Assembly (NCBI GenBank): GCA_016219005.1
Contig: JACRCN010000022.1
Coordinates: 1-38,085 of the forward strand
DNA: 38,085 nucleotides
DNA from: Deltaproteobacteria bacterium
GTDB lineage: Bacteria > Desulfobacterota > Desulfobacteria > Desulfobacterales > SpSt-501
Reading direction: 5' to 3'
Positions 1,245 to 35,304 of the stretch are shown here, one piece after another (the stretch's first letter is position 1; the number at the start of each line of letters is the position of its first letter). Position numbers and translations under genes: made by a program. The notes beneath the pieces are model-generated. The model searched no databases, was not told the origin of the DNA, and worked only from the letters and a program-made list of their open reading frames with translations.

Positions 1245-1532
1245 TTACGCCGATGGTCCTGCTTTTCCAAGTTGCCATCGGATTTCCGCATCGATCTTTT
1301 CTTCGGCCTGCTCGAAGCCTTGGACAACCACCACGTCGCCGACCATGGCCGCCGGGGCGACAGGCAGCCCCAGCTTTATGTGCTCTATACTTCCGTAGTC
1401 TTCTCTTGTCTTCGATATCATCTCGAATTCGACCATGTCCCTGTATTTTTCCCGCAGCCTGTGGAAAATTTCACCGAAATGCCCTCAGGTTTTGCCTGGT
1501 GGGTTATTCACAAAAAATCGCACTTTAATCAT
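1245..1532 (-). CDS. Small thioredoxin-fold selenoprotein (GKTU motif), paralog 1
   Basis: Reading through one UGA at 1487-1485 gives a 95-residue protein with selenocysteine at residue 16, in the context PPGKTU. The start ATG is preceded by AAGGAG at good spacing, whereas an ATG after the UGA would discard the first beta strand. The fold looks thioredoxin/glutaredoxin-like: strand at 2-8, Sec at the start of helix 1, then LPVAPA (cis-proline position), the beta hairpin AAMVGDVVVVQG and a final helix EEKIDAEIRWQL. It is a diverged paralog of the proteins at 6807-7124 and 8062-8379, which carry UGA at the same codon number. It is the last gene of the minus-strand ArsR-rhodanese set, 138 bases behind it. 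The protein is probably a single-selenolate redox protein; its partner is unknown. Confidence 0.85.
1448..1468 (-). promoter_or_regulatory. Putative bacterial SECIS hairpin
   Basis: Downstream of the UGA on the minus strand, TTTTCCAC pairs with GCGGGAAA (7 of 8 pairs, one G-U) around the loop AGGCT. The loop begins 25 bases after the UGA, the same offset and nearly the same loop as in the two paralogs. Confidence 0.6.
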
Positions 1533-2410: not shown

Positions 2411-2413
2411 CTA

Positions 2414-3097
2414 TCAAATCGCTGGTGCACTAAGAGCGTCCAAGGCAAATCCCATGGCCCGCCAGTCCTGGATGCCTCCTTCAAGCCGGATAGCCTTGAA
2501 ACCGAATTTTCGCAGCATTTCGACAGCCTCAACCGCAAGCACGCAATACGGCCCCCGGCAATAGGCAACGATCTCCTGCTCCCGAGGCAACTCGGAAAGC
2601 AGTTTTTCAAGCTGATTCAGCGGAACGGACAAAGCGCCGGGAATATGGCCGGCGCGGTACTCATCCTCCGGTCGAACATCCAACAAGGTGACGGCACCTT
2701 CTCGCACTCGCTGCAACAAGACATTTCTATCGACCGGCTCCATGCCCTCCTTGTTTTTCAGAAACCGGCGCTTGATCATCTCGACTTCGGCCAGCCTATT
2801 CTCAGCTAATACGCGCATGGCATGGATAAACTGGCAAACCATCTGATCCGCAAGACGGTATTTTACGTAGTACCCTTCTCTTTCCGCATCGACCAGGCGA
2901 GCCGCTCTCAAGATCTGAAGGTGTTGGGAGGCATTGGCTATTGTCAGGCCGGTTTCCCTGGCAAGGGATTCAACGGTTTTTTCGCCTTGGCAGAGCAGGT
3001 CGAGCAGTTCCAGACGGTTGGGGCTCGAAACCGCCTTGCCGATTCTTGCGAATTGCTCATAAATTGAATCCTTAAATCGTCTATTTGGATTTTTCAT
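2414..3097 (-). CDS. ArsR-family repressor fused to rhodanese domain, copy 2
   Basis: The 227-residue product is a paralog of copy 1 with the same layout. The ArsR winged helix is at about 8-95 (SPNRLELLDLLCQGEKTVESLARE, TIANASQHLQILRAARLVDAEREG). The rhodanese domain is at about 122-220 with LLDVRPEDEYRAGHIPGA and the loop YCRGPYC (C180, C185). An AAGGAT ribosome site precedes the ATG. It has its own promoter and an overlapping dyad operator. Tandem duplication with conserved catalytic cysteines suggests two regulators that respond to related sulfur or selenium signals. The C-x4-C spacing of the loop equals the Sec-x4-Sec spacing of the rhodanese fusion at 5035-6786. Confidence 0.9.
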   Translation of the reverse strand: MKNPNRRFKDSIYEQFARIGKAVSSPNRLELLDLLCQGEKTVESLARETGLTIANASQHLQILRAARLVDAEREGYYVKYRLADQMVCQFIHAMRVLAENRLAEVEMIKRRFLKNKEGMEPVDRNVLLQRVREGAVTLLDVRPEDEYRAGHIPGALSVPLNQLEKLLSELPREQEIVAYCRGPYCVLAVEAVEMLRKFGFKAIRLEGGIQDWRAMGFALDALSAPAI

Positions 3098-3106
3098 AAT
3101 TATCCT

Positions 3107-3132
3107 TTCAATTAATCAATTAATCAATTGAA
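3107..3132. promoter_or_regulatory. Dyad operator of ArsR-rhodanese copy 2
   Basis: Outer half-sites TTCAATT and AATTGAA enclose two overlapping copies of the ATT-AATC-AATT core. This resembles the perfect dyad at 2361-2386 (TTCAACT-AATC-AGTTGAA). It lies at the expected transcription start of the minus-strand promoter. Confidence 0.65.
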
Positions 3133-3135
3133 AAT

Positions 3136-3164
3136 TATATATCCTATAACGACTCAATTGTCGA
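3136..3164 (-). promoter_or_regulatory. Promoter of ArsR-rhodanese copy 2
   Basis: On the minus strand TCGACA and TATATA are 17 bases apart, giving a start near 3129 within the operator. Called from consensus and position. Confidence 0.5.
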
Positions 3165-3235
3165 CCATTACATGTGCCAAATCAGCAGGTATTCTCCACG
3201 CTATGATCGGCCCAAGGTTTATTTCTGTTTTTTTA

Positions 3236-3263: not shown

Positions 3264-3361
3264 TAATCATTAGTATATTTTTAACTGATCCTTTTGTTCC
3301 TTAAGCCATTATTAAAAATTTATTAAATTACAACATGTTAGTGCGATTTCCGAATGAATGA

Positions 3362-4078
3362 GCCACGCAAAAAGGAGATTCCGGAATTGATTTTCATTCG
3401 GTTCGCGTTGCCGATGGGCAGCTTCTGCATGCCCATGCGTTGATTTTAGCGGCTGGCGGCAGTGCGAAAAGGTTGAACGTTCCCGGAGAGATCGAGAGCT
3501 TCGGCAAGGGGGTTTCCTATTGTGCTACCTGCGATGGCTTTTTTTTCAGGGATAAAACTGTCGTGGCCGTTGGCGGCGGAGATACTGCCTTGGAAGATGC
3601 CCTGTATCTCTCAAAGATTACGAAGCACGTCTACCTGGTCCACCGCCGTGATGCTTTTCGGGCGAGCCGCATTCTCCAGCAGCGCATCATGGCTGAGCCT
3701 AAAATAGAAACCATTTTTAATGCGAGGGTTGCTCAAATCCAATCAAATGAAAACGGTGTCTGTGCCGTTGTGCTTGAAGGCACCAAGACCGGCGAACAAA
3801 AAGAGCTATCGGCCGAGGGTGTTTTTATATTTGTCGGGTTTTCCCCCAACAGCCAGCTCGTGCCCGCCGGCATTAAAGTGAGTCCTACTGGCTATGTCAT
3901 AACGGATGAAAGGTGTGAGACAAGCATTCCGGGCATCTTTGCAATCGGTGATCTCAGACAAAAGTACGCCAACCAGATCGTTATAGCCGCCGCAGACGGA
4001 TGTACGGCGGCTCTCGCTACGGCTCATTATGTCGAGAAGCAAAAAGCGAGCGCTGTTTGTTCAGGCCTTCCCGCATGA
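3362..4078 (+). pseudogene. trxB: Thioredoxin reductase lacking its N-terminal FAD half
   Basis: The open frame (about 238 codons, first stop upstream at 3359) encodes the middle and end of a TrxB-type flavoprotein. It contains LILAAGGSAKRLNVPGE, the redox motif CATC, the NADPH-binding loop VGGGDTALEDALYL, HRRDAFRAS, and the C-terminal FAD motif GIFAIGDLR. Intact TrxB is about 305-320 residues. Here the first roughly 100 residues, including the GxGxxG dinucleotide fold, are absent, and AT-rich non-coding sequence stands in their place. No good ATG exists; the first usable start is TTG at 3440. The product could not bind FAD normally, so I call it a 5'-truncated pseudogene. The surviving frame is clean, suggesting a recent loss or retained expression of a fragment. 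Confidence 0.78.
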
Positions 4079-4119
4079 GTCTTCGGCGGTATACCGCAAA
4101 ACAGCAAGGATGATTTTCA

Positions 4120-4521
4120 ATGAAAAAGATGGCTAAGGGAAACCTGGCAAGCGACCCTGCGACGAAAAGAAAAAGTGAAATTAGTAATGCAGCAGAGCAG
4201 CAGGGCGCGATGCTTCCGCTTGACGAACACTTCCAAAAAGTCGCTTTCTTGGCCAAGAGCCTTTCGGACGAGAATCGCCTTAGGATTCTCCTGTGCGTGA
4301 GCAGCGGCAAGAAACCCGTTTCGGCCATCGTTGAAGAGGTGGGACTCTCCCAGCCTCTTGTTTCCCATCATCTGAAGGAGCTTAAGCGATCACTTTTAGT
4401 CAGTGTCGAGAGAAACGGTCCCTTCATTTATTATGAGCTCGTTGACCCGAGAATATTGGATGTCGTTCAAACCTTGAGTGTCGTCGCGACAGACTCGTTG
4501 GCTGCCCGAAAAACCTTTTAA
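4120..4521 (+). CDS. ArsR-family transcriptional regulator
   Basis: The 133-residue product has a winged-helix ArsR/SmtB domain at about 38-120 (FLAKSLSDENRLRILLCVSSGKK; VGLSQPLVSHHLKELKR; wing ERNGPFIYYELVDPRI). A polar extension of about 30 residues precedes it, and an internal ATG (residue 31, MLPLDEHF) could be the true start. The ribosome site is weak. Metal-binding cysteine motifs typical of ArsR or SmtB are not obvious, so the signal is unknown. It stands first in the plus-strand run that continues with the UGA-containing redox genes and may regulate them. Confidence 0.86.
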   Translation: MKKMAKGNLASDPATKRKSEISNAAEQQGAMLPLDEHFQKVAFLAKSLSDENRLRILLCVSSGKKPVSAIVEEVGLSQPLVSHHLKELKRSLLVSVERNGPFIYYELVDPRILDVVQTLSVVATDSLAARKTF

Positions 4522-4544: not shown

Positions 4545-4994
4545 ATGGAAGACTTGCTAAAAGTGGTCAGCCGCATGGAACCGGAACATGCATTGACCGA
4601 GATTTCCGGTGCCCTGAAAGTGCTTTTTGCAGCTTTGGGCGAGGAGGCGCGTTCGCAATTCCTGTGGGAGCTGTTGGGAGAGTCCAAAGATGACAAGGTG
4701 TCCAGCCTGGTGCATCTCTGACTGGCTGAATGCATGGGCGAAGGTGTCGACCCAACGCAGATGTGCCAAAGGCTGGTGGATAAGGTCGCTCAATCAAAGC
4801 AGCTGATGGCAATCACCGATCCCGATCTTTTGGTCCTTTTCGAGGACTGGCTGGAGGAGTTGGAAGAGGAAATCATCGCTCTCGGCAAGGCATATGGGCC
4901 TCTTGATCCAGGAACGCTCGCCAAAAGGACCGGGCTCTCGATGAGGGGATCAATCTTCCTTCTTTCGAAGCTCAATCGTGAAAAAAAGCTTTAG
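4545..4994 (+). CDS. Uncharacterised helical selenoprotein (VHLU motif)
   Basis: Two frames in phase (4545-4718 and 4722-4994) are separated only by the UGA at 4719-4721. Together they give a 149-residue, largely helical protein with selenocysteine at residue 59, in the context SSLVHLU-LAEC, with a cysteine four residues later. The downstream part has no ribosome site before its ATG at 4734, so a separate gene is unlikely. A SECIS-like hairpin follows the UGA. The second half is acidic (LFEDWLEELEEEIIALG). A short segment near the end, DPGTLAKRTGLSMRGSIFLL, resembles a degenerate helix-turn-helix, which is speculative. I recognise no family. It lies 40 bases before the Sec-rhodanese fusion and is probably cotranscribed with it. 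The start may instead be TTG at 4536. Confidence 0.7.
4735..4754 (+). promoter_or_regulatory. Putative bacterial SECIS hairpin
   Basis: TGGGCG pairs with CG-A-CCCA (one bulged A) around the loop AAGGTGT. The loop G residues lie about 22 bases after the UGA at 4719-4721, within the range known for bacterial SECIS elements. Confidence 0.5.
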
Positions 4995-5034: not shown

Positions 5035-6786
5035 ATGCAAAACAAGAAGACGACATTCATAGCCTTGGCAGCGGTGGTACTTACGGTTGGAGCGCTCTGG
5101 TTTACCAATCGCACCGTTACTCCCAAGCAGGCCACATGGGATGATGTTTTGGTCGAAGCGAAAGCCGGAGGCTACAAGATCATCACCACCGAAGAGCTTG
5201 CCAAGCGTTATCAAAAAAATCCCGAAAGCATTTATTTGGTGGACACGCGCCAGGAGTGGGAATACCGAACAGGCCATCTCAAGGGAGCGGCAAACTTCTC
5301 CATCGAACCGACATGGTGGTCGAGGTGGCGTAGCGCGTCGGCGCTGGAAACCTTTCTTGGACCGGATAAAGAACGCACTTTCATTTTCTACTGAGCCGGC
5401 TTGACATGAGTCCGTAGCGACTCGGCGGCCCGTGTGGCCGTTAAGCTCGGCTATAAAAACGTCTATCGCGATCCCTACGGCTATCCGGAATGGCAAAAAG
5501 TTGGCATGCCGGTTGAAAGTGCTCCTGCGGGGCTCGCTCAAACAACTGAACCGCCTCAGGCTCCGGGACCTCTCTACGGTTGGGCCATGATCTGGACGAT
5601 TTTAGGCATTTTTGCAGGCGGCATGGCGCTGAACCTTACCCCTTGCGTTTACCCGTTGATCCCCATCACGGTTTCCTACTTTGGCGGTCAAGCCTCAAAG
5701 ACCGATCAGGGCCACGGAAAGCTCGTCGCGCATGGGTTATGTTACTTGCTGGGCCTTGCGGTCACCAACTCCGTGCTCGGCGTGGCAGCGGCGCTGACCG
5801 GGGGACTCATGGGATCGATACTCCAAAACCCCTTTGTCCTTATCGCCATCGCCGTCGTTCTCATCTCTTTTGCCGCAAGCCTTTTCGGCCTTTGGGAGCT
5901 GCGTCTTCCGAGTGCCGTCACACAGGCCGCTGTGAAATCCTACAGCGGGTATTTCGGAACTCTGTTCATGGGTTTGACTCTGGGGGTGGTGGCAGCCCCC
6001 TGCATCGGCCCCTTTATTCTCGGTCTGCTCACATGGGTGGCGAGCATGGGGAGTCCTTGGTTGGGCTTTGTGGTTTTTTTCACCTTGAGCCTTGGGCTGG
6101 GGCTGCCGCTGTTTTTTCTGGCGGTTTTTTCAGGTCAACTGCAAAAGTTTCCCCGATCCGGCGGCTGGATGCTGTGGGTCCGCAAGGTCATGGGGTGGGT
6201 ATTGGTCGGAATGGCAGTTCATTTTTTACGACCGATTCTGCCCGAATCCGGAGCGGTCCTGCTCATGTCGGCGGTCGTTCTGGCGGCAGGAGTGCATCTG
6301 GGATGGCTCGATAAAAATACGGCAAGTTTTCGTTTATTTTCCTGGCTAAAAACAGGTGCCGGTGTCGCATGCTTCGTTTTGGCAACTTTTCTCGTGATGT
6401 CCTGGGCGATGCGTGGCCCCGGCGTTAGCTGGAAGACTTACTCAGAGGAAACCTTGAGGGAGGCTCAGAATCAAAATAAGCCGGTCATCATCGATTTCTA
6501 CGCCACATGGTGTACCCCCTGTCGAGAGCTTGAGGAAGTCACCTTTCATGACGCCGAAGTCGTCAAGCAGGCGGAGAAAGATTTCATCATGGTAAAAGTG
6601 GATGTGACCCAGGGAGGCAATCCGTTTCACGAACGATTGCTGCAGGAATACGGCATTAAAGGCGTGCCCACCATCGTTTTCTTAGACCCCAGCGGCAAGG
6701 AAAAGCAGGAATTGCGCCTGGTGGATTACCTCCCTCCTGATATTTTCATAGGGCGCATGGCAGACTTGAAAAAATCCAGCAGTTGA
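5035..6786 (+). CDS. Selenocysteine rhodanese-DsbD-thioredoxin fusion protein
   Basis: Reading through UGAs at 5392 and 5407 gives one 583-residue protein. A signal anchor lies at about 7-24 and an extracytoplasmic rhodanese domain at about 45-152, with YLVDTRQEWEYRTGHLKGAANF and an active loop YUAGLTU (U120, U125), ending GYPEWQKVGMPVE. A DsbD/CcdA-type membrane domain follows at about 180-435, with its cysteines at NLTPCVYP (C204) and APCIGP (C323). A thioredoxin domain at about 460-580 carries WCTPC (C493, C496). In DsbD the periplasmic N-terminal domain takes electrons from the membrane domain; here a rhodanese takes that place. Both loop cysteines of the ArsR-rhodanese paralogs (YCRGPYC) become Sec. 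The start has GGAGGTG. Inferred role: moving cytoplasmic reducing power across the membrane to a selenol pair acting on persulfide, polysulfide or oxidised selenium substrates. Confidence 0.85.
5408..5423 (+). promoter_or_regulatory. Putative SECIS hairpin for the first rhodanese UGA
   Basis: GAGTC and GACTC form a perfect 5-base stem around the loop CGTAGC. The loop begins 19 bases after the UGA at 5392-5394. The left arm includes the last two bases of the second UGA. Confidence 0.5.
5426..5440 (+). promoter_or_regulatory. Putative SECIS hairpin for the second rhodanese UGA
   Basis: CGGCC and GGCCG form a perfect 5-base stem around the loop CGTGT, which starts 22 bases after the UGA at 5407-5409. 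Confidence 0.5.
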
Positions 6787-6806: not shown

Positions 6807-7124
6807 ATGTTGAAAGTTAAGTTTTTTCTAAATGAACCCAACGGCAAGCCTTGAAAGAACTTCAAGCAAATGATGCCCAGGTTGGGCGCCAAATATCCGA
6901 TTGAGATCGAAACGACATCCAAGCCCATCGCAGATTATCAAACGGATGAATACTTTGAATTGGATTTGCCCGTGGCCCCGGCGGTCTTGGTAGGCGACGA
7001 GATCGTGGTGGAAGGTTCCAACATTCCAGAAGAAAAAGTAGAGGGTGCCATCCGCCGACACTTAGGGCTGGCCGAACCCGAGTCTCGAAAGAAAAGCATT
7101 ATAGGCAGGCTCCTTGGCGGTTGA
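6807..7124 (+). CDS. Small thioredoxin-fold selenoprotein (GKPU motif), paralog 2
   Basis: Reading through the UGA at 6852-6854 gives 105 residues with selenocysteine at position 16 (PNGKPU). Strand 1 is LKVKFFLNE, Sec caps helix 1 (KNFKQMMPRL), and strand 2 is YPIEIETTS. Then come LPVAPA with a cis-proline-like position, the hairpin AVLVGDEIVVEG, and the final helix PEEKVEGAIRRHLGL. AAAGGAG precedes the ATG, which is 20 bases after the Sec-rhodanese-DsbD gene, so they are likely in one operon. No other cysteine is present, so the selenolate acts alone or with a partner thiol such as glutathione or the DsbD-like protein. It is clearly paralogous to 8062-8379 and, more distantly, to 1245-1532. 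Confidence 0.86.
6875..6887 (+). promoter_or_regulatory. Putative bacterial SECIS hairpin
   Basis: GCCC and GGGC enclose the loop AGGTT, which starts 25 bases after the UGA. Compared with the paralog at 8130-8142 the outermost stem pair changes from G-C to C-G while pairing is kept, a compensatory change. Confidence 0.65.
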
Positions 7125-7172: not shown

Positions 7173-7979
7173 ATGTCATTGCCGTCTAAAAAATACGATG
7201 AGCCGTCAGTTTTCACGGCAGAAAACCTGTTGAGGGAAGCCCGGCGGCAGAAATCAACATCTATCGGTTCCGTGCCCGATATCTGTCTGCTGGACCCGGA
7301 CGGTGATATTGTGCGGCATTTGGTCGCGAGAAATCAGGCATCCAAATGCCCCCACTGGGCCTGCTATCACACAGACCTGTACCTTTTCGAACAGGAAGGT
7401 TTCCGGTACGGCGTGATTGGCTGCGCGGTGGGGGCCTCTTTTGCGGTACTGGTCGCCGAGGAACTTTTCGCCTCGGGCTGCGCGCTGCTTCTTAGCGTTA
7501 CGTCTGCCGGTCAGATCCTGCCCATTCGCAAGCCTCCTTATTTCGTGCTTATCGACAAGGCGCTTCGCGACGAAGGCACCAGCTATCATTATCTGCCGTC
7601 ATCGGACTATAGCGCCATTGATGGAAAGCTCTTGGGGTGGTTGGAGCCCAAACTAAAGTCCTGTTCGTTACCGGTTGAAATCGGGTCGACATGGACCACC
7701 GACGCACCTTTCCGCGAAACCGCCTCGGCGATCGCAGCCTGCCGAGATTTAGGGCTGCTGGCCGTAGAAATGGAAGCGGCGGCGCTTTATGCCTTTGCGA
7801 AAGCTAGAAACAAACCTGTTATCTGTTTCGCGCATGTTACCAACCAAATGGCTAACGTTGAGGGCGATTTCGAAAAGGGAGCCGAGAACGGCTGCCGGGA
7901 TGCGCTGCGATTGGTGGCCATAGTTGCCCGGCTTTGGCAGAATTTTTCAAAATCAGTTGCTTCGGGAAAGGACGCTTGA
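7173..7979 (+). CDS. Nucleoside phosphorylase family protein (uridine phosphorylase-like)
   Basis: The 268-residue product matches the PNP/UDP phosphorylase fold. It has YGVIGCAVGASFAVLVAEELFASGC in the phosphate-binding region, LLSVTSAGQILPI, and the nucleoside-binding segment LLAVEMEAAALYAFAKARNKPVICFAHVTN, where the E of VEMEAAALY is the usual ribose-contacting residue. Such enzymes split nucleosides with phosphate into base and sugar-1-phosphate. Its N-terminal part (about 60 residues, LLDPDGDIVRHL) fits uridine phosphorylase-like members. It is an odd metabolic gene sitting between two near-identical selenoprotein genes in the same direction. No link to the redox genes is obvious. Substrate is unassigned. 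Confidence 0.83.
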   Translation: MSLPSKKYDEPSVFTAENLLREARRQKSTSIGSVPDICLLDPDGDIVRHLVARNQASKCPHWACYHTDLYLFEQEGFRYGVIGCAVGASFAVLVAEELFASGCALLLSVTSAGQILPIRKPPYFVLIDKALRDEGTSYHYLPSSDYSAIDGKLLGWLEPKLKSCSLPVEIGSTWTTDAPFRETASAIAACRDLGLLAVEMEAAALYAFAKARNKPVICFAHVTNQMANVEGDFEKGAENGCRDALRLVAIVARLWQNFSKSVASGKDA

Positions 7980-8061: not shown

Positions 8062-8379
8062 ATGTTGAAACTAAGAGTTTTTCTAAACGAGCCCGGCGGT
8101 AAGCCTTGAAGGCATTTTGCTGAAATGATCCCCAGGCTGGGGAGAAAGTATAACGTCGAATTAGAGACCACATCCAAGCCTAACCAGGAATACCGCACGG
8201 AAGAATACGCCAGACTGGGGCTGCCCGTGGCCCCGGCGATCATGGTTGGAGATGAGTTGGTGGCGCAAAGCTGCGATGTCGCCGAAGAAAAGGTGGAGGC
8301 CGCCATCTGCCGGCATCTTGGGCTCCCTGAGCCTGCTCCACAAAAAAAGGGCATCCTCGATAGGCTTTTAAGGGGATGA
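8062..8379 (+). CDS. Small thioredoxin-fold selenoprotein (GKPU motif), paralog 3
   Basis: Reading through the UGA at 8107-8109 gives 105 residues with selenocysteine at position 16 (PGGKPU). It has the same length and Sec position as the protein at 6807-7124 and high identity throughout: FLNEP, PRLG-KY, ETTSKP, LPVAPA, VGDE, EEKVE-AI-RHLGL. GGAGGG precedes the ATG. It has a cysteine near the middle and another near the end (SCDVAEEK, AICRHL) that paralog 2 lacks. That difference may mean different partners. The pair flanks the nucleoside phosphorylase gene, which suggests duplication around an inserted or captured gene. Confidence 0.86.
8130..8142 (+). promoter_or_regulatory. Putative bacterial SECIS hairpin
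   Basis: CCCC and GGGG enclose the loop AGGCT, starting 25 bases after the UGA. Loop and offset match the two paralogous genes. Confidence 0.65.
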
Positions 8380-8472: not shown

Positions 8473-8841
8473 ATGGAATCCGTAAAGAATCGGAAGGGCG
8501 CTGCGATCAAGGCGGCTCTTTTGATCATCTTTATCGTTGCGGCTATCGTGGTTGTCCGTTTCACTTTGGTCTATTTTCCCTTCACTCCTATGAACTTCGG
8601 CATGGGACTTACCAAAGTGCGATTTTGGGATTATTTCTCCGGCACGGCTCTTGGCATTGTTGTCGGAACCTTCATCTTAACCTTCTTTTTCGGTACTGTT
8701 AAAGAGATCTGGGCAGGCGGCAACTGGGTAGATCTCATAAGCTGGAAAGTTATGTTCTCACTTGCGCTTTTCGTCTCTTCTTTCTTTATTCCCCAAATCA
8801 TTAAAAGGGTGAAAACACCAGGAAGGGTTGAGACCGCCTGA
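8473..8841 (+). CDS. Internally shortened TVP38/TMEM64-like membrane protein
   Basis: The 122-residue product starts with a typical basic N-terminus and one membrane helix (about 12-32). It then joins directly to the C-terminal part of a TVP38/TMEM64 (SNARE-associated, VTT) protein: FPFTPMNFGMGLTKVRFWDYFSGTALGIVVGTFI, and a last helix before PQIIKRVK. Family members are usually about 200-240 residues. The central hydrophobic section with its glycine-rich segment, roughly 100 residues, is missing, yet the frame is intact. The PGT motif normally found near GTFI reads VGT here. It looks like an in-frame internal deletion and may be non-functional. An AAGG ribosome site is present. Confidence 0.68.
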   Translation: MESVKNRKGAAIKAALLIIFIVAAIVVVRFTLVYFPFTPMNFGMGLTKVRFWDYFSGTALGIVVGTFILTFFFGTVKEIWAGGNWVDLISWKVMFSLALFVSSFFIPQIIKRVKTPGRVETA

Positions 8842-33305: not shown

Positions 33306-35216
33306 CTACCCCTTGCGTATTTTGCGCACGTCTCCCACCCGGAGGGTGACGTTCTTCGAGTCAAAATACTCGAACAGGGGGATGAGGAACTTGCGGGAGG
33401 CGCCGGTCATTTCCTTGAACTGGGTAGGGTTGATCTCGCCGTTCTCCTCCAGGAATTTCACCAGCCGCTTTTTCAGATCGTCGATGGCCTCGGCGTGGAA
33501 ATAGAGGTCGTCTTTGGTGCGGATGATCAACCCCTGCTCGATCAGCAGATGCAGGACATCCTTGGCCTGAGCCGGATCGGCCCTCAGGGTCTCGGTGACA
33601 TCCCGGAAAAAAGGTGGCTGCAGGCCGCCGTCCTTGTAAATTTGGAGCATTTTCCGGCGCAGGCTCGCCTCGTCTCCGGCGAGCGACACCTTGTGGGCTT
33701 TCAGGCGGACGCTTTTCTCCTCCTGCACGAGTGCGTTGTCCTTGATCATCTGGTTTAAAACGAGGTTGAACAGCTTCGCGTCCGTGCCGGGTGGAAACTT
33801 GCTCTTCAGCTCCTCCTTGGACATGCCGGACTTGAGGGGAAAGGCCTGGTGGTAGCCCCGCAGGTGCTCGGCCGTGTCCCGCACGAGTTCCTCGAAACTG
33901 CTCTTGTGCACGAAGGTCCGACTCTCCTTGTCCACCTGGACGATGGCGCGTGTACTCATCAGGCTCTGGAGGGTGGCGTCAAGCTGCTTGTCCGTCAGGT
34001 TCGTCATCAGCCGCAGGTCCGCAAAGGAGGCCCCCAACGGGCCGGAGGCGGAAATGTGAAAACCGACGAGCTGCTCCGGCCCGCCCGAAAGGACCCCCTT
34101 CAGCCCCTGCACCACCTCCGGCTTGAAACGCTTGTGTTTGGGTGGGATGGGATTCAAGACCTGCCCGCCGCCGACCGTGCGCACCGGCGAGTAGCTGCGC
34201 ACGACGAAGTGGTCGTCCTTGACGACGGCCACCGGCGTGTCCAGCCGCAGTTGGGCGACGGTTTCCTGCCCGGGCGCAAGCTCGTCCTGCTCGAGCAGGA
34301 TCAGGTTGCCGAGGATTTCGGAGGTGCCGGTATGGAAACGGACGCGGGTGCGGTTTTTGATGGCCCGGCCGTTGCTCGCCAGATAGCGGAAATGGATATC
34401 CACCATGTAGCTTGGCCGGAGCGCCTGGGGGATTGCGAGCACGTCCCCGCGCTGCACCGCCTCCTTGTCCAGCCCCTGGAAGTTGATGGCGGTGCGCATG
34501 CCGCTTTCGGCCGCCGGAACGCTCTGGTTGTGGACCTGGACGCCCCGGACCTTGGAGGTGATGCCGGATGGGTAGATCATGACGGCGTCCCCCACTTGGA
34601 CCCTGCCGGAGACGAGGGTGCCGGTGATGACGGTGCCGAAGCCTTTCATGGTGAAGACGCGGTCCACGGGCAGGCGGAAGAGGCTTGAGGGCGGCCGATC
34701 CGGAATCTGCCGAGCGAGCGCGTCAAGGGCCTGGATGAACTCGGGAAGCCCCTGGCCGGTGACCGCCGAGATCGGGATGATGGGCGCGTTTTCGAGAAAG
34801 GTGTCACGGGTAAACTCCTTGACGTCCTCTGTCGCGAGCTCCAGCATCTCCTCGTCGACGAGGTCGACCTTGGTCAAGACCACCAGCCCGTGGCGCACGC
34901 CGAGCAGCGTGCAGATCTCCATGTGCTCCCGAGTCTGGGGCATGACCCCCTCGTCGGCCGCGATCACCATGGCGACGATGTCGATCCCCGTGGCGCCGGC
35001 CACCATGTTTTTCACAAACTTTTCATGGCCGGGAACATCCACGACCCCTAAATGCTGGCCGCTCGGCAGGTCGAGATGGGCAAAGCCCAGCTCGATGGTG
35101 ATCCCCCGCAGCTTTTCCTCCTTCAGGCGGTCGGTATCGATACCGGTGACCGCCCGCACCAGGGACGTCTTGCCATGGTCGATGTGGCCGGCGGTGCCTA
35201 GAATGATCTGTTTCAC
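33306..35216 (-). CDS. selB: Selenocysteine-specific elongation factor SelB
   Basis: The 636-residue GTPase brings Sec-tRNA to UGA codons marked by a SECIS. G1 is [12 protein letters not shown] at the extreme N-terminus, and the other G motifs are [25 protein letters not shown] and LTKVDL. EF-Tu-like domains 2 and 3 follow ([20 protein letters not shown]). The C-terminal half contains the winged-helix repeats that read the SECIS (for example [19 protein letters not shown] and [22 protein letters not shown]). A GTG start at 35216 is chosen because AGGAG lies 9 bases upstream and it gives the normal [16 protein letters not shown] beginning. No selA, selD or selC is in the window. It supports the Sec reading of the UGA codons at 1.2-8.4 kb. 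Confidence 0.97.
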
Positions 35217-35304
35217 TTTCTGAAGCTCCTGCTGAATGACATGCGCTTGTTGGTTCGGCGGTTCGACTTGGAAAGTGGGGAGCACCTATGGGTCCAAGAG
35301 AAGC

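Follow-up and report, generated by a model that had tools for sequence, protein, structure and literature searches.

The 38,085-nucleotide stretch analysed here (the window), from contig JACRCN010000022.1 of a Deltaproteobacteria bacterium, carries tsoB, a gene joining a rhodanese domain with two selenocysteine (Sec) residues to a DsbD-type membrane electron carrier. The double-Sec gene is real, well supported and already catalogued: the identity of the protein, its domain order and its conserved redox residues are established, as is, by sequence criteria, its coding of two Sec residues. We propose, with a probability of about 0.55, that TsoB is a DsbD-type transmembrane reductase whose Sec pair would reduce sulfane sulfur, or a substrate like it, outside the cytoplasm.

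The tsoB gene and its Sec-x4-Sec loop

5035-6786, forward strand: tsoB (NF045694, 1012 bits, cut-off 805; Pfam domains; translation)
5392-5394, forward strand: UGA for Sec120, first of the pair (TGA in 72 of 72 loop-holding loci; TGC in the Cys relative)
5407-5409, forward strand: UGA for Sec125, second of the pair (TGA in 72 of 72 loop-holding loci; TGT in the Cys relative)

Reading through positions 5035-6786 yields 583 residues followed by a terminal TGA, with two internal stops, both TGA, in the context FYUAGLTUVRS (active loop YUAGLTU, Sec-x4-Sec). A membrane anchor, a rhodanese, a DsbD-type membrane domain and a thioredoxin domain follow one another in this single frame. A Pfam search of the read-through translation recovered Rhodanese at residues 52-155 (54.2 bits; the PF00581 gathering score is reached and the fold is that of a rhodanese), DsbD_TM at 187-402 (142.4 bits) and thioredoxin-like domains in the C-terminal part (best stretch 466-552). 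The C-terminal domain of DsbD (cDsbD) was the best structural match, the thioredoxin domain dominating the PDB matches listed. In addition, C204, C323, C493 and C496 align with the cysteines of E. coli DsbD, and those of the membrane and thioredoxin domains are invariant among 48 aligned sequences. These results bear out the initial annotation, made from the DNA letters, which had placed UGA at both loop positions that are Cys in the neighbouring YCRGPYC rhodaneses, had seen a rhodanese in place of the N-terminal acceptor domain of DsbD, and had the DsbD cysteines C204, C323 and C493/C496 kept.

The same annotation had held that no protein with this layout was described, which did not stand. 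The NCBIfam model NF045694, "rhodanese/DsbD fusion-like selenoprotein TsoB", is matched over profile positions 2-571 of 572, and a 2026 review (PMC13188914), in the part available to us, catalogues TsoA, TsoB (UxxxxU, two Sec) and TsoC, cites Haft and Tolstoy (mSystems 2025), and lists TsoB with no function given; the layout is therefore already described. Among the Sec rhodaneses in that part of the review, forms 1-4 (UxxS, UxxG, CxU, UxxG) have one Sec each, and form 5, with two, is TsoB. The window protein agrees with NF045694 over its whole length, in domain order and in the UxxxxU pattern (YUAGLTU, TGA at 5392 and 5407), with no difference found. The neighbourhood expected from the NCBIfam names (TsoA, TsoC, TsoR) is present, the window encoding TsoR, TsoA and three copies of TsoC. 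These matches place the gene in the catalogued TsoB family. To the published description, as far as the available part of the review gives it, the present work adds evidence on the hairpins, a copy with two Cys and a comparison of the Sec pair with the acceptor pair of DsbD.

Conservation was followed in the best 80 of at least 578 stretches encoding relatives in a species-level genome collection, a sample and not a census. The rhodanese loop was present in 72 of the 80 loci, and both codons were TGA in all 72; seven of the remaining eight lack a rhodanese domain (DsbD-only loci) and one is a contig beginning downstream of the loop. One loop-holding locus (L089) has a third in-frame TGA and another (L088) a deletion just past the loop; a double-Cys form was not recognised among the 80. 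By their titles, most of the records are deltaproteobacterial; a Nitrospirae, a Thermodesulfovibrionales and a Gemmatimonadetes assembly are also named, as is one isolate, Desulfacinum infernum DSM 9756. When the window's own genome and 57 related ones were searched, two TGA codons fell within a loop-covering match in 15 of the 58, namely its own and 14 others (two partial, and two with a single TAG or TAA as well within the match). When 395 genomes of the phylum were searched, scoring three candidates per listed genome, 23 loci in 22 genomes exceeded the TsoB cut-off, 22 of them with two TGA codons and one with none. No TsoB match was found in 14 control genomes.

Under a conventional reading, two in-frame TGA codons would be true stops or sequencing errors, and the rhodanese and DsbD parts separate proteins. 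Since both TGAs are kept in 72 of 72 loop-holding loci, chance or sequencing error is excluded; the protein is also conserved across both codons, one hairpin covaries, a double-Cys copy in genome G330 reads without a stop (see below), and the fetched flanks of the seven DsbD-only loci gave no rhodanese match at E up to 1e-3. We therefore rejected this explanation, to which we give practically no weight. The annotated fusion of rhodanese and DsbD in one protein thus holds in the 72 loci examined, with no rhodanese match in the fetched flanks of the DsbD-only genes and with both UGAs conserved. The data argue that both UGAs in tsoB are read as Sec and that the frame encodes a selenoprotein and is not a damaged gene.

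The origin of the fusion was approached by a tree on the DsbD part, built from 23 TsoB and 21 other rows after L096 and L174 had been dropped. The best tree needed three label changes between TsoB and other rows, with the TsoB rows L103 and L107 placed with 13 DsbD rows and the DsbD row L113 among TsoB; a single origin is neither supported nor contradicted by it. Carriage by mobile elements was considered as well. Plasmid and phage carriage of TsoB were rejected, the matches listed (10 of 359 plasmid records, 5 of 10 phage records) being annotated as DsbD/DipZ or unannotated and all records falling below 60% identity; TsoA had no match in plasmids. Two peptide patterns retrieved no relative from viral contigs, although one of them requires Cys at the second Sec position and would miss a UGA.

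Candidate SECIS hairpins behind the two UGA codons

5408-5423, forward strand: candidate Sec insertion sequence (SECIS) hairpin 1, GAGUC-N6-GACUC, placed for Sec120 (codon bias, pairing)
5425-5441, forward strand: candidate SECIS hairpin 2, GCGGCC-N5-GGCCGU, placed for Sec125 (covariation, shuffles)

Hairpin 1 begins 13 bases past the first UGA and takes in two bases of the second, and hairpin 2 begins 15 bases past the second UGA. Both were followed in 71 sequences (the window and 70 loci), leaving out L087 as too short and L088 for its deletion. Hairpin 2 was intact in 95.8% of them; when synonymous codons were exchanged between sequences in 1000 shuffles, it survived in 59.6% on average and in 70.4% at most, which argues that it is kept through compensating silent changes. 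Hairpin 1 is retained as a candidate because of codon choice, not covariation: V126 is encoded by GTC in 64 of 71 sequences, a codon used for 31.3% of the Val residues in the rest of the gene; S128 uses AGC or AGT in all 71 (39.6% elsewhere), and D129 uses GAC in 68 of them (45.5% elsewhere).

A second pairing count used 42 of the 71 sequences, chosen by hand. Overall, 97.0% of cells paired, compared with 92.1% in shuffled sequences and 24.5 to 61.0% for slid structures; hairpin 1 taken separately had 93.8% of cells paired. Cells changed on both sides numbered 26 against 6.7 in shuffles (0 of 500 as high), and three pairs carried such changes, two of them in hairpin 2, a number that 19 of 500 shuffles also attained. 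Folding single sequences by minimum energy gave mixed results, with other pairings often preferred. Each UGA of tsoB is probably directed by its own downstream hairpin. In two contigs of one assembly (L091 and L094) hairpin 1 is lost and CUGUCG/CGACAG can pair around the second UGA; read by eye, this may be a substitute hairpin. Adjacent hairpins that apparently serve UGAs 15 nucleotides apart would offer a handle on how bacteria make two Sec insertions in quick succession.

Cysteine forms and a model for the Sec pair

A search for the same fusion with Cys in other genomes found one double-Cys copy. In addition to a normal TsoB, genome G330 carries a TGA-free second copy that scores 913 bits against the TsoB model and has the loop YCAGPDC, using TGC and TGT at the two Sec positions; it is the 1 of 23 full TsoB matches in the phylum search with Cys at both places. 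No further Cys copy was found in the genus (7 genomes) or class (29 genomes) of G330, one genome yielding a loop-less fragment only. The double-Cys copy shares 85% identity with the Sec form found in a second genome of the genus and clusters among Sec forms in a tree (support 100/98), so the double replacement of Sec by Cys looks like a derived state here. Near it (L151, 5565-6173, reverse strand) a methyltransferase frame reads on through a UGA and resembles the methyltransferase/UXPK-star double selenoprotein (its first part scores 364 bits against NF047649, below the 460 cut-off).

Unfused rhodaneses of related genomes share a homologous domain with TsoB (phmmer E from 4.5e-24 to 2.8e-19; frames of 137-408 aa, a length that leaves no room for the fusion), with no DsbD part and with Cys instead of Sec at both positions (loop YCGFxKC in 7 of 7 hand-picked proteins). 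The Cys pair may therefore be ancestral for the rhodanese domain, with Sec replacing both. The question is thereby narrowed to a loop that is Cys-x4-Cys in unfused relatives and Sec-x4-Sec in TsoB, where the pair is kept and stands at the place of the terminal dithiol of DsbD. With a Sec form and a derived Cys form in one genome, G330 holds a natural pair for testing what selenium contributes.

DsbD takes electrons from cytoplasmic thioredoxin, relays them by way of two cysteines in the membrane to its C-terminal thioredoxin domain, and hands them on to an N-terminal Cys pair. TsoB shares with DsbD (NF001419) the membrane domain with C204/C323 and the C-terminal CxxC thioredoxin domain with C493/C496, whereas DsbD has its own N-terminal domain (nDsbD) with a Cys pair and TsoB a rhodanese with a Sec pair. 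The NF001419 profile scored 247.3 bits, below its 330 cut-off, and the nDsbD Cys pair is absent from TsoB. An automatic alignment pairing the TsoB Sec residues with nDsbD Cys joins unrelated folds and is no evidence of homology.

Our model takes its topology, electron direction, partner order and substrate from DsbD and rhodanese biology. Cytoplasmic thioredoxin would reduce C204/C323, whose electrons would pass to C493/C496 of a presumably outward-facing thioredoxin domain, and from there, through a predicted contact, to Sec120/Sec125 of the rhodanese. The Sec pair, in the position held by the N-terminal dithiol in DsbD, would be the last station. Here Sec120 would attack sulfane sulfur, in the form of polysulfide, persulfide or thiosulfate, or else a selenium counterpart; Sec125 would resolve the intermediate, leaving a Se-Se bond to be re-reduced by the thioredoxin domain. 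Sulfane sulfur is proposed as the most likely target because of the rhodanese fold, the gene context lending no direct support, and the substrate is the least secure step. The fuller proposal, of a self-contained transmembrane sulfane-sulfur (or selenium) reductase that ends on an extracytoplasmic diselenide or selenol pair in the rhodanese site and has its own hairpin for each UGA, is more tentative, and we put it at somewhat under even odds. If true, TsoB would represent a new terminal activity in the DsbD superfamily.

Several observations weigh against these proposals. Hairpin 1 hardly covaries, being intact in 88.7% of sequences against a shuffled mean of 85.0% and a shuffled maximum equal to the observed value, and Rfam at gathering thresholds returned no SECIS in the whole window, only two tRNAs. 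The predicted structure of TsoB has a mean predicted local distance difference test score (pLDDT) of 76.8 and a predicted template modelling score (pTM) of 0.52, so the domain packing is unsure. A scan of 140 other neighbours, out of 239 candidates, yielded 257 Pfam families, and the 25 most frequent of these included no sulfur gene, the commonest having five occurrences. Finally, the regulator TsoR was rejected as a thiol sensor for want of a conserved Cys (best column 39% of 33 sequences) and so offers no clue to a signal of the thiol or persulfide kind.

The Sec pair might instead be a mere electron relay, a stand-in for the nDsbD dithiol that serves periplasmic protein disulfides through a rhodanese without sulfur chemistry. 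Such a role fits the retention of all electron-carrying DsbD cysteines and the Cys-x4-Cys motif that precedes the same membrane domain in five of the seven DsbD-only loci. The replacement is, however, specifically a rhodanese that is kept in the 72 loci and whose catalytic position is occupied by the first Sec, and a relay alone does not obviously need Sec at both positions; we regard this alternative as unlikely, though deserving of consideration.

TsoB could also be a sulfurtransferase in which electrons only reset the enzyme after sulfur transfer, with no release of sulfide. The domain passes the Pfam Rhodanese model, and ArsR-rhodanese proteins lie adjacent in the window, with matches near tsoB in 10 of 80 loci, but strict retention of the second Sec points to resolution within the molecule, and hence to reduction, and not to transfer to an outside acceptor, making this explanation improbable. 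We consider handling of metal(loid)s or selenium oxyanions (arsenic, mercury, selenite), in which extracellular reducing power would come from TsoB, quite improbable too. In its favour, TsoR is of the ArsR/SmtB type, the double-Cys copy of G330 lies near an arsenite-methyltransferase-like gene, and a neighbour cluster found in two loci (one of them L054) resembles an arsenite efflux permease. Against it, no metal-resistance family was among the 25 most frequent in the neighbour scan, TsoR has no conserved cysteines, and rhodaneses are by default sulfur enzymes. A reductase acting on sulfane sulfur or a similar substrate remains our preferred reading.

Gene neighbourhood and Sec machinery

4120-4521, forward strand: tsoR, ArsR/SmtB-type regulator (NF045707, 163.2 bits, cut-off 115)
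4545-4994, forward strand: tsoA, LULAEC selenoprotein, UGA 4719-4721 (NF045695, 218.8 bits, cut-off 170; scanned from 4536)
6807-7124, forward strand: tsoC, NEPNGKPU selenoprotein, UGA 6852-6854 (NF045708, 144.8 bits, cut-off 45; scanned from 6783)
8062-8379, forward strand: second copy of tsoC, UGA 8107-8109 (NF045708, 137.7 bits, cut-off 45; scanned from 7924)
1245-1532, reverse strand: third copy of tsoC, NNPPGKTU, UGA 1485-1487 (NF045708, 95 bits, cut-off 45; scanned from 1652)
8473-8841, forward strand: VTT-domain membrane protein, a recurrent neighbour (PF09335, 33.0 bits, just below the 33.9 cut-off)
1671-2369 and 2411-3199, reverse strand: tandem ArsR-rhodanese fusion proteins with YCRGPYC loops (Cys-x4-Cys)
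33306-35285, reverse strand: selB, Sec-specific elongation factor (TIGR00475, 378.4 bits, cut-off 242.25)

The tso genes of the window run in the order tsoR-tsoA-tsoB-tsoC. Among the 80 loci, query matches were obtained for TsoC in 53, TsoR in 44, TsoA in 36, VTT in 17 and ArsR-rhodanese in 10; the last are included in the 44 TsoR-query loci and lie, in nine of the ten, upstream of tsoB on the same strand. None of these five queries matched at the seven DsbD-only loci. Absences among the 80 loci are uninformative because many contigs end nearby. By eye, TsoA and TsoC have no obvious signal sequence, and TsoB is therefore probably the only member of the operon reaching outside.

Just 5' of tsoR, a thioredoxin-reductase-like frame (3335-4079, forward strand) lacks the first third of its profile (TIGR01292 positions 90-300) and is possibly truncated or begun in another frame. 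A thioredoxin-reductase partner for TsoB was rejected, the query matching 0 of 80 loci at E up to 1e-20. A phosphorylase-superfamily gene (PNP_UDP_1; 7173-7979, forward strand) lies between two tsoC copies, and its query likewise matched 0 of 80 loci. A link of the VTT neighbour to selenium through YdjX was dropped, YdjX not being found among the literature matches listed.

In the window's genome ARAGORN called a tRNA-Sec, and selB is present twice, once inside the window. An Rfam tRNA-Sec search gave a match in 14 of 14 control genomes (five above the cut-off) and is weak evidence by itself because all controls match. The second selB (G000:C100:12853-14739) lies directly after the tRNA-Sec gene; contamination of the bin (4.67%) may account for the presence of two copies. 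Two selB matches occurred in 7 of 40 related genomes, the window's own included, two of the second matches being partial, and in genome G023 the second selB lies about 5 kb from tsoB.
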